Assembly (NCBI GenBank): GCA_905479815.1
Contig: CAJQOA010000117.1
Location: forward strand, 1 to 50,081
DNA length: 50,081 bases
Reading direction: 5' to 3'
DNA from: an uncultured Psychroserpens sp.
Lineage (GTDB): Bacteria > Bacteroidota > Bacteroidia > Flavobacteriales > Flavobacteriaceae
Shown here: in pieces, positions 8,129-20,046 of the stretch
Layout of the letters: every line of letters starts with the position of its first letter
Numbering within the stretch: the stretch's first letter is position 1
Position numbers and translations under genes: made by a program
The notes under the pieces: model-generated
Databases searched by the model: none
Told to the model about the DNA's origin: nothing
The model's input: the letters and a program-made list of their open reading frames with translations, nothing else

Positions 8129-8995
8129 ATGGCAGAAAAAGAGAAAGAGAAAAAATTTAGAAAAAAATTGCTTCACAAGTATCGTTTGGTAGTTCTAAAC
8201 GAGGATACTTTTGAAGAAAGATTCGCCATAAAATTGACGCGTCTTAATGTCTTTGTTATTTTATCATTAGGGACCATTTTACTTATAGCTGGAACTATTT
8301 TTCTTATAGCTTTTACGTCTTTAAAGGAATATATTCCTGGTTATTCTTCTACCGCTTTAAAGAAACAAGCCACAGTTTTAAATTATAAAACAGATTCTTT
8401 ACAACAAGTCATAAACCTTAATGAGCAATATTATGCCTCAATTAAAAAGGTGCTAACTGGTGATGTAAGTTCCGTGGAGTTCAATAGAGACTCTATTATT
8501 GATGCAGCAAGTATAGACGCAAGTCAATTAGATTTAAAACCTACTAAAGAAGACTCTTTATTAAGAGATTTGGTGGATAAAGAAGATAAATATAATGTGT
8601 TTGAATCTACTATTTCTTCCACAAATTTTGTCTTGTTTCCTCCAGTAAACGGAACTATTTCTGAAGGTTATAATGTCAAAGATAAACACTACGCAGTTGA
8701 TGTTGTTGTCGCTAAAGACACACCTGTTAAAGCAACGGCAGATGGTACTGTGATTTTTGCAGAGTGGACTGCAGATACAGGTTATGTTGTTATTATTGAA
8801 CACAGTTACGAACTCATTTCTGTATATAAACACAATGCTTCTATTACGAAGCAGCAAGGTGATTTGGTTAAGTCTGGAGAGGTTATTGCTATGGCAGGAA
8901 ATGCAGGAGAATTAACGACAGGACCACATTTACATTTTGAACTTTGGAATAGAGGTTACCCAGTTAATCCAACCAATTTTATAGACTTTAATTAA
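8129..8995 (+). CDS. M23 family metallopeptidase, membrane-anchored
   Basis: 288 residues: a lysine-rich cytoplasmic start, one transmembrane helix (about residues 38-62), a coiled-coil spacer and a LytM/M23 domain over the last 110 residues. The zinc-site motifs are intact: HYAVD (the HxxxD pair) and HLHFELW (HxH). M23 enzymes cut peptidoglycan cross-bridge peptides; this topology with a coiled coil also resembles cell-division or shape regulators. The active-site residues suggest a working endopeptidase rather than an EnvC-like activator. The stop overlaps the next gene's ATG by one base (TAATG), so it is translationally coupled to the GH3 gene. Confidence 0.9.
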   Translation: MAEKEKEKKFRKKLLHKYRLVVLNEDTFEERFAIKLTRLNVFVILSLGTILLIAGTIFLIAFTSLKEYIPGYSSTALKKQATVLNYKTDSLQQVINLNEQYYASIKKVLTGDVSSVEFNRDSIIDAASIDASQLDLKPTKEDSLLRDLVDKEDKYNVFESTISSTNFVLFPPVNGTISEGYNVKDKHYAVDVVVAKDTPVKATADGTVIFAEWTADTGYVVIIEHSYELISVYKHNASITKQQGDLVKSGEVIAMAGNAGELTTGPHLHFELWNRGYPVNPTNFIDFN

Positions 8996-10497
8996 TGATC
9001 TCTTTAAAACCAACACTAGCAAAACTTTTCGCAAAAAATGTTAGAAAATCTGTATTAAGATGGTCTAATAAGCCTGTTGAAACTCAGGATAAGGTGTTTA
9101 AATCATTGATTAAAGAAGCCTCAAATACTCAGTTTGGTAAGGACCATGATTTCAAATCTATTAAGACACATCAAGATTTTATTGAGCGTGTTCCTATACG
9201 AGACTATGAAGATTTAAAACCTTATGTTGATAAAGTTGTTGCTGGAGAAGAAGATATTCTTTGGAAAGGCAAACCATTATATTTCGCAAAAACATCTGGG
9301 ACGACCTCTGGAGTAAAATACATTCCGTTAACAAAAGAAAGTATGCCAACACATGTTGAAGCAGCTCGAAATGCGATCCTAATGTATATTGCAGAAACAG
9401 GAAACAGTAAATTTGTGGACGGAAAAATGATTTTCTTACAAGGAAGTCCAACTCTAGAAGAAAAAAACGGAGTCCAACTAGGCAGACTTTCAGGAATTGT
9501 GGCACATTTTGTCCCAAAGTATCTTCAAAAAAACAGAATGCCTTCTTGGGAAACTAATTGTATAGAAGATTGGGAAACTAAAGTTGAAGCGATTGTTGAA
9601 GAAACCCTTCCAGAAGATATGTCTGTTATTTCTGGTATCCCATCTTGGGTTCAAATGTATTTTGAGAAGATCAATCATAAAACAGGTAAAAAGGTTGGCG
9701 ATGTCTTTAAAAACTTCAATCTTTTCATATTTGGAGGCGTAAATTATGAGCCTTATAGAGCAAAGTTCGAAAGCTTAATAGGCAGAAAAGTAGATAGTAT
9801 AGAGTTGTATCCTGCAAGTGAAGGCTTTTTCGCGTTTCAAGACAAACAGAATGAAAAAGGAATGCTTTTACAATTAAACTCTGGGATGTTTTATGAGTTT
9901 ATAGAAGCCAATCATTTTTTTGACGACAATCCTAAACGTCTAACGATTTCCGAAGTAAAAACAGGTGTCAACTATGTGATGATTATTTCTACTAATGCTG
10001 GGCTTTGGGCTTATAATATTGGCGACACGGTTGAGTTTACGTCTACAAAACCTTATCGAGTCATAGTTTCAGGGAGAATTAAACATTTTATTTCTGCGTT
10101 TGGTGAACATGTGATTGGTAAAGAGGTTGAACATGCTTTACAAGAGGCAACACATGGTTTGGCGGTTAGTGTTTCAGAATTCACGGTTGCTCCACAGATT
10201 AATCCTGATTCTGGTTTACCATTTCATGAGTGGTTTATTGAATTTGATAATGAGCCTGAAGACATTCTAGGGCTTGCAAAAAACATAGATAGGTCTATGC
10301 AGAAACAGAATAGCTATTATTATGATTTGATCTTCGGAAACGTGCTGCAACCATTAAAAATATCAATAATAAAGAAAAACGGATTTCAAGACTACATGAA
10401 ATCTATAGGTAAATTGGGAGGGCAGAACAAGATACCAAGGTTGTCTAATGACCGAAAAATTGCAGATGCGCTATACGCTCAAAAATTGTTGAAATAA
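8995..10497 (+). CDS. GH3 auxin-responsive promoter family protein (adenylate-forming enzyme)
   Basis: 500 residues of the GH3 fold, an ANL-type adenylating enzyme. Three nucleotide motifs are visible: KTSGTTSGVKYIPLT near residue 99, YPASEGFFAFQ near 271 and YNIGDTVEFT near 339. Plant GH3 enzymes couple acyl acids such as auxin or jasmonate to amino acids through an acyl-AMP; the bacterial homologues have no settled substrate. It is cytoplasmic by sequence. It is coupled to the M23 peptidase gene by a one-base overlap, and a DUF6909 gene with its own promoter follows. The adenylation chemistry is inferred from the family; the acid and acceptor are unknown. Confidence 0.88.
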   Translation: MISLKPTLAKLFAKNVRKSVLRWSNKPVETQDKVFKSLIKEASNTQFGKDHDFKSIKTHQDFIERVPIRDYEDLKPYVDKVVAGEEDILWKGKPLYFAKTSGTTSGVKYIPLTKESMPTHVEAARNAILMYIAETGNSKFVDGKMIFLQGSPTLEEKNGVQLGRLSGIVAHFVPKYLQKNRMPSWETNCIEDWETKVEAIVEETLPEDMSVISGIPSWVQMYFEKINHKTGKKVGDVFKNFNLFIFGGVNYEPYRAKFESLIGRKVDSIELYPASEGFFAFQDKQNEKGMLLQLNSGMFYEFIEANHFFDDNPKRLTISEVKTGVNYVMIISTNAGLWAYNIGDTVEFTSTKPYRVIVSGRIKHFISAFGEHVIGKEVEHALQEATHGLAVSVSEFTVAPQINPDSGLPFHEWFIEFDNEPEDILGLAKNIDRSMQKQNSYYYDLIFGNVLQPLKISIIKKNGFQDYMKSIGKLGGQNKIPRLSNDRKIADALYAQKLLK

Positions 10498-10525: not shown

Positions 10526-12217
10526 ATGAATAAAAGAAAAATTCACGAAAGAACGAGAGCTCAAGAAAGCTCAAATGCCATTGAGAGAATGTATGTTACA
10601 ATGCGACATTTATTTAATCGTGGGTTTTATAAGCCAATGGGAGTTTCTGGTGAGACACTTAGAGAGTCTTTATTATTATTAAGACCAGAAATTTACGGAT
10701 CTATTTCCGAAGAAAAAGCAGAATTAGAAGGGTTATTATATGTTATTGACCGGTTACCAGAAGGTATTGAGGAGTGTACATTTATTAACTTGACAAGTGA
10801 TGAAGGATATGGGAATTCTCATTTTAAGCCAATAATTCCGCCAAAAAGACGTCGTAACTGTTATCGCATCGATGCAGAACAGATGAATATTGAAATCACA
10901 AGAGGTCGATCAGAAATATATGACATCTTAACACACCTTACTTTTTTATTTATTGAGTCTCATAAAATAAGTAAACGCGTTTTAATAGACGAGCAAGGAA
11001 GGACAACTCGAGATTGGATTAAATTAGAAAAAGCGGTGCTTTCTAAAAAGAAATTAACGCAACAAGAGCGTGAGATAGCCATTACTCATACTGCAAATAT
11101 TTTAGGCAGAACATTTGAGGAGCTTACAAATGCACATTCAAAATTTACTACTAAAGCACAACCTGAACGATTACTCCATATTGTATATTGGTTAGGTAAA
11201 TTGGCAATTGAAGAGGTTGTTAATAACAATAAAAGAACAGTTACCTTCAGTCCAGTTTTAAGAGAGCGACTAGGTCATCATATTCACGGAGAAATTTGGG
11301 CTGATAATATTAAAGAAATACTTCAAAAGAAAAATTTACTAGGACGTCCAATTCATGTCATAAGTGCCAATATGCACAGTGTCATGAATTCTATTTTTAC
11401 ACCTATAGCTTTAAAATCAATAACGTCAAAAAAAGATATTTTTGAAGTTTATGAATCTATTGGTAAAAAGGAAAATGAAGCTTTACGCAATAAAATAACA
11501 AAGGAAGCGTTGCAGAGTGGAATGATTTATATTAAGGACACATCTGGAACAAATATAGATGTTCAGATTTTTGATACCGCTAAAATTGATTTTTCTAAAA
11601 CAGATATAGAGCTTGATGATTCATTTAATAATGATGACAAACCTGTATTATTTGTTATGGATTATGCCTTTGGAGAACAGGCTTATGAAACAATTGATGA
11701 GTTTTTGAAACCCTACAATGTTGATGGTGAAAAAGTACATTTAAATGTGGAGTCTGTTTCTATAATGGGTAAGGCAGGTATTTTAGAAGGTGGTAAAGGA
11801 GATATTATGATTCCATCAGCACATATTTTTGAAGGTACAGCAGATAATTATCCTTTTGAAAACGAACTCAGTAAAGCCGATTTAGAAGGACAAGGAGTTA
11901 AGGTTTATGAGGGTTCTATGATTAGTGTTTTAGGGACATCACTTCAAAATAAAGAAATATTAAAGTTCTTTTATAATTCGACATGGAATGTGATTGGGTT
12001 AGAAATGGAAGGTGCTCATTATCAAAAAGCAATACAAGCAGCATCAAAGGTTCGAGGTAGTATTAATCCTGATGTAAAAGTACGTTATGCGTATTATGCA
12101 AGTGACAACCCACTAGAAACAGGAAGCACTTTGGCTTCTGGTGGTTTGGGGACTTCTGGAGTTAAACCAACCTATTTAATAACAAGAAAAATATTACAAC
12201 AGATATTTAATAAATAA
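10526..12217 (+). CDS. DUF6909 family protein with nucleoside phosphorylase/AMP nucleosidase-like C-terminal half
   Basis: 563 residues, cytoplasmic, matching a conserved Bacteroidota family I know as DUF6909 with no assigned function. The N-terminal half (RMYVTMRHLFNRGFYKPMG onward) is unfamiliar. In the C-terminal half I see signatures of the PNP/UDP-phosphorylase fold: GKAGILEGGKGDIMIPSAH (about residues 415-433), like the G-x-G-G...GD-x-V-x-P loop, and GLEMEGAHYQKA (about 491-502), like the ribose-binding V-x-ME-x-A motif. Next comes YYASDNPLETG, resembling the AMP nucleosidase CVSDKPL segment. This suggests an N-glycosidic-bond enzyme acting on a nucleotide or nucleoside; the activity is inference. 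The Wzz-like gene starts 9 bases after its stop. Confidence 0.78.
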   Translation: MNKRKIHERTRAQESSNAIERMYVTMRHLFNRGFYKPMGVSGETLRESLLLLRPEIYGSISEEKAELEGLLYVIDRLPEGIEECTFINLTSDEGYGNSHFKPIIPPKRRRNCYRIDAEQMNIEITRGRSEIYDILTHLTFLFIESHKISKRVLIDEQGRTTRDWIKLEKAVLSKKKLTQQEREIAITHTANILGRTFEELTNAHSKFTTKAQPERLLHIVYWLGKLAIEEVVNNNKRTVTFSPVLRERLGHHIHGEIWADNIKEILQKKNLLGRPIHVISANMHSVMNSIFTPIALKSITSKKDIFEVYESIGKKENEALRNKITKEALQSGMIYIKDTSGTNIDVQIFDTAKIDFSKTDIELDDSFNNDDKPVLFVMDYAFGEQAYETIDEFLKPYNVDGEKVHLNVESVSIMGKAGILEGGKGDIMIPSAHIFEGTADNYPFENELSKADLEGQGVKVYEGSMISVLGTSLQNKEILKFFYNSTWNVIGLEMEGAHYQKAIQAASKVRGSINPDVKVRYAYYASDNPLETGSTLASGGLGTSGVKPTYLITRKILQQIFNK

Positions 12218-18825: not shown

Positions 18826-19615
18826 AAACCTAAGAATCGCAATTGAAGCGTCTTTAAAGGCTGGTGAAGTTATTATGGAGGTTTATGATACTGCTTTCAA
18901 TGTTGAAATTAAAGATGATAAATCCCCTTTAACAGAAGCAGATAAAAGAGCGAATGATATTATTAACTCTTACCTCATTGAGACACCTATACCAATTATT
19001 AGTGAAGAGAATAAACAAATAGATTTTGATATAAGGAAAAACTGGGATACATGTTGGATTGTAGACCCTGTTGATGGCACTAAAGAATTCATAAAGCGAA
19101 ATGGAGAATTCACTGTTAATATTGCCTTAGTTCATAATGGAGTTCCTCAATTAGGAGTTATTTATGTACCAGCATCAAAAACGCTTTATTACGCTGATAA
19201 TATTAAAAACACTGCGTATAAGGTTGAGCTATTAAATCATAACACATCAATTTCTACGATTTTAGAAGCATCAAAAATACTTCAACCTAAACATAATGAT
19301 GGGAGTTTTATTGAGGTTGTTGGTAGTCGCTCTCATATGAGCGAAGAAACACTAAATTATATCTCACAATTAAAAACGGAAGGTAAAGATGTCGATATCG
19401 TTTCTAAAGGGAGCTCATTGAAGTTTTGTTTAGTTGCAGAAGGTAAGGCAGATGTTTACCCAAGGTTTGCTCCAACAATGGAGTGGGATACAGCTGCAGG
19501 ACAGGCAATTTGTAATGCCGTGGGTGTTCAAGTGATTTCAAAAGAGACTAATAAATCCCTTTTGTACAATAAAGAGAACCTTTTAAACCCTTGGTTTATT
19601 GTATCTAAATCATGA
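18803..19615 (+). CDS. cysQ: 3'(2'),5'-bisphosphate nucleotidase CysQ
   Basis: 270 residues of the inositol monophosphatase-like metal-dependent phosphatase family. The metal site is visible as SEEN (Glu69-70), DPVDGTKEF (Asp88, Asp91) and WDTAAGQ near residue 228. CysQ removes the 3'-phosphate from PAP, the by-product of sulfotransfer from PAPS, relieving product inhibition. Placement directly before cysC/D/N and near a sulfotransferase fits PAP recycling in polysaccharide sulfation. It overlaps fcl by 23 bases and the next gene by four (ATGA), so it belongs to the same operon. Confidence 0.94.
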   Translation: MSGIEINKNLRIAIEASLKAGEVIMEVYDTAFNVEIKDDKSPLTEADKRANDIINSYLIETPIPIISEENKQIDFDIRKNWDTCWIVDPVDGTKEFIKRNGEFTVNIALVHNGVPQLGVIYVPASKTLYYADNIKNTAYKVELLNHNTSISTILEASKILQPKHNDGSFIEVVGSRSHMSEETLNYISQLKTEGKDVDIVSKGSSLKFCLVAEGKADVYPRFAPTMEWDTAAGQAICNAVGVQVISKETNKSLLYNKENLLNPWFIVSKS

Positions 19616-20046
19616 AAGACCAATCTCATAAAAGACATATAGCTAAAACTATTACTTGGAGAATAGTGGGAACTATAGATACTGTGATACTTTCATGGAT
19701 TATCTCTGGAAGCCCAACCATTGGTTTAAAGATTGGCTTTGCTGAGGTCGTAACAAAAATGTTACTTTATTATTTTCACGAAAGAGCTTGGTTTAAAATA
19801 AACTTATCAAAAGACGGTGAAGTTTTAGAAAGTAGAAAAAGGCACATAGCTAAAACATTTACTTGGAGACTTATTGGCACCATAGACACAATGATTTTAG
19901 CTTGGATTATTTCTGGAGATCCTTTAACTGGATTAAAAATTGGATTTGCAGAGGTTGTTACAAAGATGTTTTTGTATTACTTTCATGAACGTTTTTGGTA
20001 TAAGTTAAACTATGGGCTTTCTAATAGAAATAAAAAAGAACTATAA
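19612..20046 (+). CDS. tandem DUF2061 membrane protein
   Basis: 144 residues made of two copies of the roughly 60-residue DUF2061 unit. Each unit carries KRHIAKTxTWR, GTIDTxILxWIISG, GLKIGFAEVVTKM and LYYFHERxWxK. The copies are offset by 69 codons (units begin near bases 19631 and 19838), so this is an internal duplication. Each unit has a hydrophobic hairpin, so a four-helix inner-membrane protein is likely. DUF2061 has no proven function; in my knowledge it often sits beside sulfate-activation genes. Here it overlaps cysQ by four bases and precedes cysC. A role in sulfate entry or in holding the PAPS machinery at the membrane is conjecture. Confidence 0.88.
   Translation: MKDQSHKRHIAKTITWRIVGTIDTVILSWIISGSPTIGLKIGFAEVVTKMLLYYFHERAWFKINLSKDGEVLESRKRHIAKTFTWRLIGTIDTMILAWIISGDPLTGLKIGFAEVVTKMFLYYFHERFWYKLNYGLSNRNKKEL

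Follow-up and report, generated by a model that had tools for sequence, protein, structure and literature searches.

DUF6909 of Flavobacteriaceae is predicted to be a divergent two-domain member of the nucleoside phosphorylase superfamily and may act as an AMP nucleosidase

We analysed a 50,081-nucleotide stretch of DNA from an uncultured Psychroserpens sp. (hereafter the window), in which one 563-residue open reading frame (ORF) is assigned by Pfam scan to the family of unknown function DUF6909 (PF21850), with 216.7 bits against a gathering cut-off of 27 (Table 1). The genome to which the window belongs, of 3.3 Mb at 88.7% completeness, has a single copy of the gene, which is preceded on the same strand by a GH3-family gene with which it is probably co-transcribed. 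Elsewhere in the window (19612-20046), a 144-residue ORF is built from a KRHIAKT(I/F)TWR(I/L)(V/I)GTIDT...FHER unit that occurs twice in tandem, in similar copies. Neither DUF6909 nor PF21850 is named in any paper of the literature searched; among the papers listed by searches on AMP nucleosidase in Bacteroidetes/Flavobacter and on nucleoside phosphorylase combined with domain of unknown function, none dealt with DUF6909, as judged by title or start of abstract.

Table 1. Features of the DUF6909 locus. Coordinates are those of the window; residues are those of the DUF6909 protein.
Feature	Coordinates	Strand	Basis
GH3-family gene, separated from DUF6909 downstream by 28 bases	8995..10497	+	PF03321, E 2.6e-41
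DUF6909 protein, two domains, 563 aa	10526..12217	+	ORF; PF21850, E 6e-64
N-terminal domain, residues 1-249, predicted as mainly helical, with a minor beta portion	10526..11272	+	AF2 model; no known fold matched
Putative PNP/UDP-superfamily catalytic domain, residues 250-563	11273..12214	+	Foldseek and VIA on predicted model: AMP nucleosidase, PNP, uridine phosphorylase, MTAN
GHH, residues 250-252; candidate equivalent of Amn H188/Y189 (5'-phosphate, neighbouring chain)	11273..11281	+	Order and domain start only
SANMHS, residues 280-285; N282 a candidate equivalent of Amn N205	11363..11380	+	Equivalence by order only
DYAFGEQA, residues 379-386	11660..11683	+	All eight residues 116/116
GKAGILEGGKGD, residues 415-426; putative phosphate/base-site loop	11768..11803	+	Aligned to superfamily G-x-x-G...GD by hmmsearch and hhalign
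GTSLQN, residues 470-475; close to where Amn has R381-N382-W383	11933..11950	+	Invariant, 116/116
EMEG, residues 493-496; M494/E495 aligned with Amn M404/E405 (base and sugar contacts)	12002..12013	+	116/116; hhalign
SDNPL, residues 526-530; D527 aligned with Amn D428; SDxP[LM] signature	12101..12115	+	116/116; hhalign to SDKPL weak, P 0.067

The first-pass annotation of this DNA had proposed a hidden nucleoside phosphorylase/AMP nucleosidase-like domain on the strength of three motifs, all of which lie where it placed them: nt 11765 opens the codon of M414, GKAGILEGGKGDIMIP spans residues 415-430 (nt 11768-11815), GLEMEGAHY residues 491-499 (nt 11996-12022) and YYASDNPLE residues 523-531 (nt 12092-12118). 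The domain itself, said to start at residue 350, is present but starts near residue 250 in the fold alignment, and is therefore about 100 residues longer than had been proposed.

In direct profile searches, PNP_UDP_1 (PF01048) aligned to residues 405-498, spanning the first two motifs, with E 0.063 (13.1 bits) for the full-length window protein, E 0.0092 (15.8 bits) for its C-terminal part and 11.9 bits in a search of the genome. All these scores fall below the gathering cut-off of 25.1 bits, so that the protein is no member by Pfam's rule, and it is fold and site that carry the claim of superfamily membership. PF01048 ranks three clear genes in the window's genome (G000), one of them DeoD, and then only the DUF6909 ORF (E 0.16); it matched three of ten DUF6909 family members at E <= 10 (best E 0.0041). 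NCBIfam, including TIGR01717 and TIGR01721, gave no match to the window protein at E <= 10, and PDB sequences, searched with DUF6909 by phmmer and by profile, yielded nothing relevant. Several weak hits were set aside: an actin-related PDB match (E 0.0087, residues 14-89), a Methyltrn_RNA_4 match in Pfam (E 0.15), and DUF3150, Phage_lysozyme and other weak Pfam matches confined to one family member each were judged to be chance, while a PHROG match (E 0.014) falls in the helical N-terminal part and carries no function.

A profile of 53 PNP-superfamily proteins was run against 92 DUF6909 ORFs and 993 other ORFs from the same loci. It ranked 87 of the 92 above all 993 others (best E 8e-6 versus 1.3), the window protein itself reaching only 7.9 bits. 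For 45 DUF6909 proteins, the maximum score was 17.9 bits with C-terminal parts, compared to 4.3 with shuffled sequences, -0.8 with reversed copies and -1.0 with N-terminal parts. When AMP nucleosidase (AMN), PNP-I or MTAN sequences were left out of the profile, 1, 11 and 3 of the 92 ORFs, respectively, stayed above the best unrelated ORF, versus 87 and 85 on leaving out UDP or DeoD. Used alone, the PNP-I profile put 5/92 on top, and each of four AMN profiles, DeoD, UDP and MTAN none of the 92. Profile-profile comparison with hhalign gave P 1.5e-4 to 2.8e-4 against the superfamily (0.48-0.51 for the reversed profile), placing GKAGIL..GD opposite GHCGGL..GD of Amn and EMEG opposite DMES. Among single subfamilies (PNP1, DEOD, UDP, MTAN, AMNS, AMNL) PNP-I was best (P 0.0006-0.0011). 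The alignment with the long AMN set, weak at P 0.043-0.067 (0.095-0.14 when the 390-residue kind was added), set EMEG against DMES and SDNPL against SDKPL. A pattern of motif order was found in all 92 DUF6909 ORFs, in 0/993 other ORFs and in 0/100000 shuffles of the protein, and counts as weak evidence because it was composed after the protein had been seen and recovers only 6 of the 53 references (four of those 53 being wrong-strand ORFs). At the level of sequence, the evidence for membership is thus weak and dependent on the make-up of the profile, yet specific.

An AlphaFold2 (AF2) model of DUF6909, computed without templates from 81 sequences (the window's and those of Flavobacteriaceae), had pLDDT 80.6 and pTM 0.63, and both Foldseek and VIA-align assign the PNP/UDP fold to its residues 250-563. 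Foldseek matched the model to 128 PDB chains at E <= 0.001. Salmonella AMP nucleosidase (2guw_B; probability 1.00, E 1.3e-6) came first, and chains of uridine phosphorylase, MTAN and PNP came next. With VIA-align, residues 250-563 scored Z 17.2-18.1 among the 50 matches listed, including E. coli Amn (1t8r; Z 17.5, 236 residues aligned, 4.0 A) at 11% identity in the fold alignment. Since the Z-scores of AMN, PNP, uridine phosphorylase and MTAN are tied, the fold gives no choice of substrate. The alpha/beta fold of the PF01048 superfamily, whose absence the first-pass annotation would have taken as refuting its proposal, is found in the AF2 prediction (best Foldseek E-value 1.3e-6, highest VIA Z 18.1), and judging from this model we regard a PNP fold as near certain.

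Modelled on its own, the N-terminal part (residues 1-258) had pLDDT 79.3 and pTM 0.75 and returned no PDB match at E <= 0.001, a threshold at which a weak match could be missed; the best VIA-align hit had Z 5.1 over 45 residues, and AMN chains were missing among the 50 matches listed by either fold search. Pfam found no AMNp_N domain (PF10423) in the window protein, and hhalign of the DUF6909 N-terminal part with AMNp_N was no better than a reversed control; a likeness to AMNp_N noticed by eye (an ITR...L..LT pattern) thus found support neither in hhalign nor in the fold search. The earlier suggestion that this domain is novel is therefore not contradicted. As a separate observation, AMP nucleosidases of about 390 residues (L181, L182, L185-L214) also have an N-terminal stretch, and in L181 and L182 PF01048 was matched and AMNp_N (PF10423) was not.

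According to a study of Amn (PMC9584410), its phosphate site is formed by R381, K436 and, from the opposed chain, H188 and Y189, its base and sugar site by N205, W383, M404, E405 and D428, and its distant homologues keep M404, E405 and D428 only. We assessed conservation in 116 distinct DUF6909 proteins, including that of the window. M494, E495 and D527, which a weak hhalign alignment sets opposite M404, E405 and D428, are invariant (116/116), and so is the complete EMEG motif, whose lack of conservation the first-pass annotation would have taken against its proposal. H252 is present in 116/116 and H251 in 114/116 proteins, making them candidate counterparts of Amn H188/Y189 by order and domain start, and S280, A281, N282, H284 and S285 are conserved throughout (116/116). 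DYAFGEQA probably stands in place of a superfamily glycine-rich loop. Opposite Amn R381, hhalign places T471, with a gap opposite N382-W383; in this alignment R381 and W383 lack an equivalent Arg and Trp in DUF6909, and for K436 a clear counterpart was not found. In the putative phosphate/base-site loop, K416, K424 and D426 occur in 116/116 proteins. In DeoD-type phosphorylases, an Arg (R87) ahead of the glycine loop holds phosphate; the GKAGILEGGKGD loop is without Arg at this place, which favours hydrolysis.

At the catalytic Asp, a common signature, SDxP[LM], was found in 24/24 AMP nucleosidases and 116/116 DUF6909 proteins, and nowhere in 29 other superfamily members (PNP-I, DeoD, Udp, MTAN-like). 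The 24 comprise 8 long Proteobacterial proteins, 10 of about 390 residues and 6 short ones from Bacteroidota, the NCBIfam name being confirmed for E. coli Amn, the short L165 and the 390-residue L181 and L182, and the others being search hits. In all 24 AMP nucleosidases, the signature follows the xMEx motif by exactly 24 residues, as against 33 residues from EMEG to SDNPL in DUF6909. The signature was spotted before being tested, which makes the test post hoc, and the sets are small.

A scan of one genome per species revealed at least 581 candidate stretches encoding DUF6909 relatives. The best 80 of these are all Flavobacteriaceae or Flavobacteriales by title, and the closest two among them, 91% identical, come from uncultured Psychroserpens. 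The family was described in the first-pass annotation as widespread in Bacteroidota: this holds for Flavobacteriaceae, with 127 carriers among 149 genomes, but only 10 of 149 Bacteroidia and 61 of 392 phylum genomes carry it. It had no match in 14 named control genomes or among 50,697 phage records. DUF6909 is also encoded at CP012860.1 236948-238624 and NZ_AP025295.1 282148-283833, on two large replicons of Persicobacter (859 and 380 kb, respectively) that are recorded as plasmids. One member of Flavobacteriaceae (G540) has two equal-scoring DUF6909 genes plus a 160-residue frame matching the C-terminal part (C2:5922-6668, 3406290-3407036 and 3410652-3411119), reflecting a duplication or an assembly artefact.

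DUF6909 and AMN exclude each other in all three genome samples, which overlap partly and are not independent. In Bacteroidia, AMN (TIGR01721 over cut-off) occurs in 0/10 DUF6909 carriers versus 105/139 others; in the phylum sample (TIGR01717), in 0/61 versus 165/331, where the 165 are hits at E <= 0.001, none over the model's cut-off and not individually vetted; and in Flavobacteriaceae (over cut-off), in 0/127 versus 6/22. Fisher tests, which ignore relatedness, give p of 2e-6, 9e-17 and 5e-6, respectively. At phylum level, the 61 DUF6909 genomes were compared one by one with the 43 AMN genomes from their class; a further 122 AMN genomes lie outside it, where the sample contained no DUF6909; one of the 165 matches (G499) is weak (E 1.4e-7). 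Of the six Flavobacteriaceae with AMN, five appear in a list of 20 genomes negative for DUF6909, and the remaining one (G649) is absent from the 127 carriers. TIGR01721 had 108 matches in the class, three of them below cut-off and outside the 105: two of these, in G091 and G136, resemble incomplete AMN genes, and the third, at 20.9 bits, is the DeoD gene of the DUF6909 carrier G134. Weak TIGR01721 matches occur in 69 Flavobacteriaceae genomes, 66 of them not among the DUF6909-negative ones, and one such match is DeoD (G134). A PNP_UDP domain in G134, a Flavobacteriaceae genome (C1:541550-542275), lies within a 1036-residue frame, an unusual architecture for housekeeping PNPs. The control family DeoD was over cut-off in 4/149 Bacteroidia, all four of them DUF6909 carriers, with one more genome (G135) just short. 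In the window's genome, AMN had no match at E <= 0.001, and no apt gene was over cut-off at 88.7% completeness (two weak matches, 22 bits). Three families (f3, f16, f63) each include sampled genomes with DUF6909 and others with AMN, none with both, and the switch has therefore probably occurred more than once. Among the 22 Flavobacteriaceae without DUF6909, 16 also lack AMN over cut-off.

A GH3 homologue lies upstream on the same strand in 80/80 Flavobacteriaceae loci, within 150 bases in 77. Plant GH3 enzymes release AMP, and a functional link between GH3 and DUF6909 is suggestive only. In ten mostly distant loci, GH3 was directly adjacent in just one, that of the window's own family, and we have for this reason not used the linkage as main evidence. 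The varied genomic setting outside Flavobacteriaceae and the absence of phage matches are as expected for a housekeeping gene.

How far do these data single out AMP? An N-glycosidase or phosphorylase of the PNP superfamily that acts on something else (IMP, GMP, NMN, MTA, a deoxynucleotide or a GH3-linked product) would fit fold scores that are alike for AMN, PNP, uridine phosphorylase and MTAN, the lack of clearly kept equivalents of R381, W383 and K436, the (near-)invariant GKAG, DYAFGEQA and EGTADNY, which are unlike superfamily motifs, and the close GH3 gene in 77/80 Flavobacteriaceae loci; on this reading, the exclusion of AMN would be indirect. We nevertheless consider this unlikely, given that exclusion is seen with AMN and not with DeoD (the only two families compared), that SDxP[LM] is common to AMN alone in the sets compared, and that GH3 is directly adjacent in only one of the ten mostly distant loci, that of the window's own family. 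It is still less likely that a PNP-fold protein has moved beyond catalysis to become a nucleotide sensor or a structural protein with its pocket kept. Non-enzymatic relatives do exist in the superfamily, one being the Spiroplasma fibril protein (NF033570), and output might be the task of the N-terminal domain. Set against this are the replacement of an enzyme family, which argues for catalysis, and the invariance in 116/116 proteins of many residues, among them the trio that, according to PMC9584410, is kept in distant Amn homologues.

The exclusion might instead be an accident of descent, AMN having been lost once in Flavobacteriaceae and DUF6909 having arisen once with an unrelated function, as could be argued from the concentration of carriers in one family, from Fisher values blind to relatedness and from the 16 of 22 DUF6909-negative Flavobacteriaceae that also lack AMN over cut-off. 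A recurrent switch in f3, f16 and f63, with no genome having both, and the lack of DUF6909 in all six AMN genomes of the window's own family make this improbable, though slightly less so than a non-catalytic role. PNP-fold nucleosidases are also known from defence systems, and the protein might be an anti-phage effector destroying ATP or other nucleotides on infection; but DUF6909 had no PADLOC match at E <= 10 (2023 library) and none in the 50,697 phage records, and it is present in 127/149 Flavobacteriaceae, beside the same GH3 gene in 77/80 loci, so that we deem a defence role very improbable.

DUF6909 is hence a divergent PNP-superfamily branch whose N-terminal domain yielded no relative in our searches, and we have virtually no doubt that the first-pass annotation was correct as regards fold and site. 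The predicted fold, the conservation and the mutually exclusive occurrence in our samples, all established computationally, are best accounted for by a divergent PNP-superfamily N-glycosidase that acts as the AMP nucleosidase of Flavobacteriaceae, to which we assign a probability of roughly 0.6. That the protein is an N-glycosidase is likely, and specificity for AMP is somewhat favoured; it is the exclusion of known AMP nucleosidases, together with the common SDxP[LM] signature, that points to AMP-nucleosidase-like chemistry. Counting against it are the failure of AMN profiles alone to pick up DUF6909, the weak hhalign match to AMN, the want of clear equivalents of R381, W383 and K436, the lack of an apt gene over cut-off in the window's incomplete genome, and the 16 of 22 DUF6909-negative Flavobacteriaceae without AMN over cut-off. 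In the mechanism we propose, residues 250-563 would form the catalytic domain of a divergent two-domain superfamily member, with an active site made up of the GKAG...GD loop, M494/E495 for ribose and base, and D527 as the presumed catalytic residue. H251/H252 would probably extend into the neighbouring subunit of an oligomer and hold the 5'-phosphate there. The N-glycosidic bond of AMP would most likely be cleaved to adenine and ribose 5-phosphate, presumably by hydrolysis rather than phosphorolysis, and the N-terminal domain would probably regulate or assemble the enzyme, which would take over the role of the AMP nucleosidase absent from its carriers.

A broader scenario, which we offer tentatively and at a little under even odds, is that an unrecognised class of AMP nucleosidase has replaced the canonical one in Flavobacteriaceae and, as an independent event, within some further families of Bacteroidia, that it controls the adenylate pool through a novel N-terminal fold and that in Flavobacteriaceae it may drain AMP given off by the adjacent adenylating enzyme of GH3 type. 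If AMP is indeed the substrate, a family of unknown function found in 127/149 sampled Flavobacteriaceae would gain a chemistry, and it would become clear how Flavobacteriaceae cope without a recognisable AMP nucleosidase. A central purine enzyme would have been displaced by a member of the same fold barely recognised by sequence profiles, bringing with it a new and possibly regulatory N-terminal domain.

Compared to known systems, DUF6909 shares its predicted fold (VIA Z about 17-18) with hexameric PNP (DeoD), uridine phosphorylase, MTA/SAH nucleosidase and PNP-I (PF01048), but SDxP[LM] occurs in none of the 29 sampled PNP-I, DeoD, Udp and MTAN-like proteins, and DeoD, unlike AMN, co-occurs with DUF6909. 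Long Amn (TIGR01717; E. coli b1982; PDB 1T8R/1T8S, 2GUW, 7UWQ) differs in that the N-terminal domain of DUF6909 is not recognised as AMNp_N, in its spacing of 24 rather than 33 residues between the two C-terminal motifs and in R381, W383 and K436, not clearly kept in DUF6909; and, despite being the top Foldseek match, it is only 11% identical in the fold alignment. Both, however, have two domains with the PNP domain C-terminal, both are without a phosphate-binding Arg before the glycine loop, and both have SDxPL at the (in DUF6909, putative) catalytic Asp, with M404/E405/D428 of Amn corresponding to M494/E495/D527. The short AMN of Bacteroidota (TIGR01721/PRK07115, 'AMN-like') is, unlike DUF6909, a single domain of about 260 residues whose own profile misses DUF6909; it has SDxPM at the site of SDxP[LM] in DUF6909, and is found in genomes without DUF6909, as if the two occupied the same slot.
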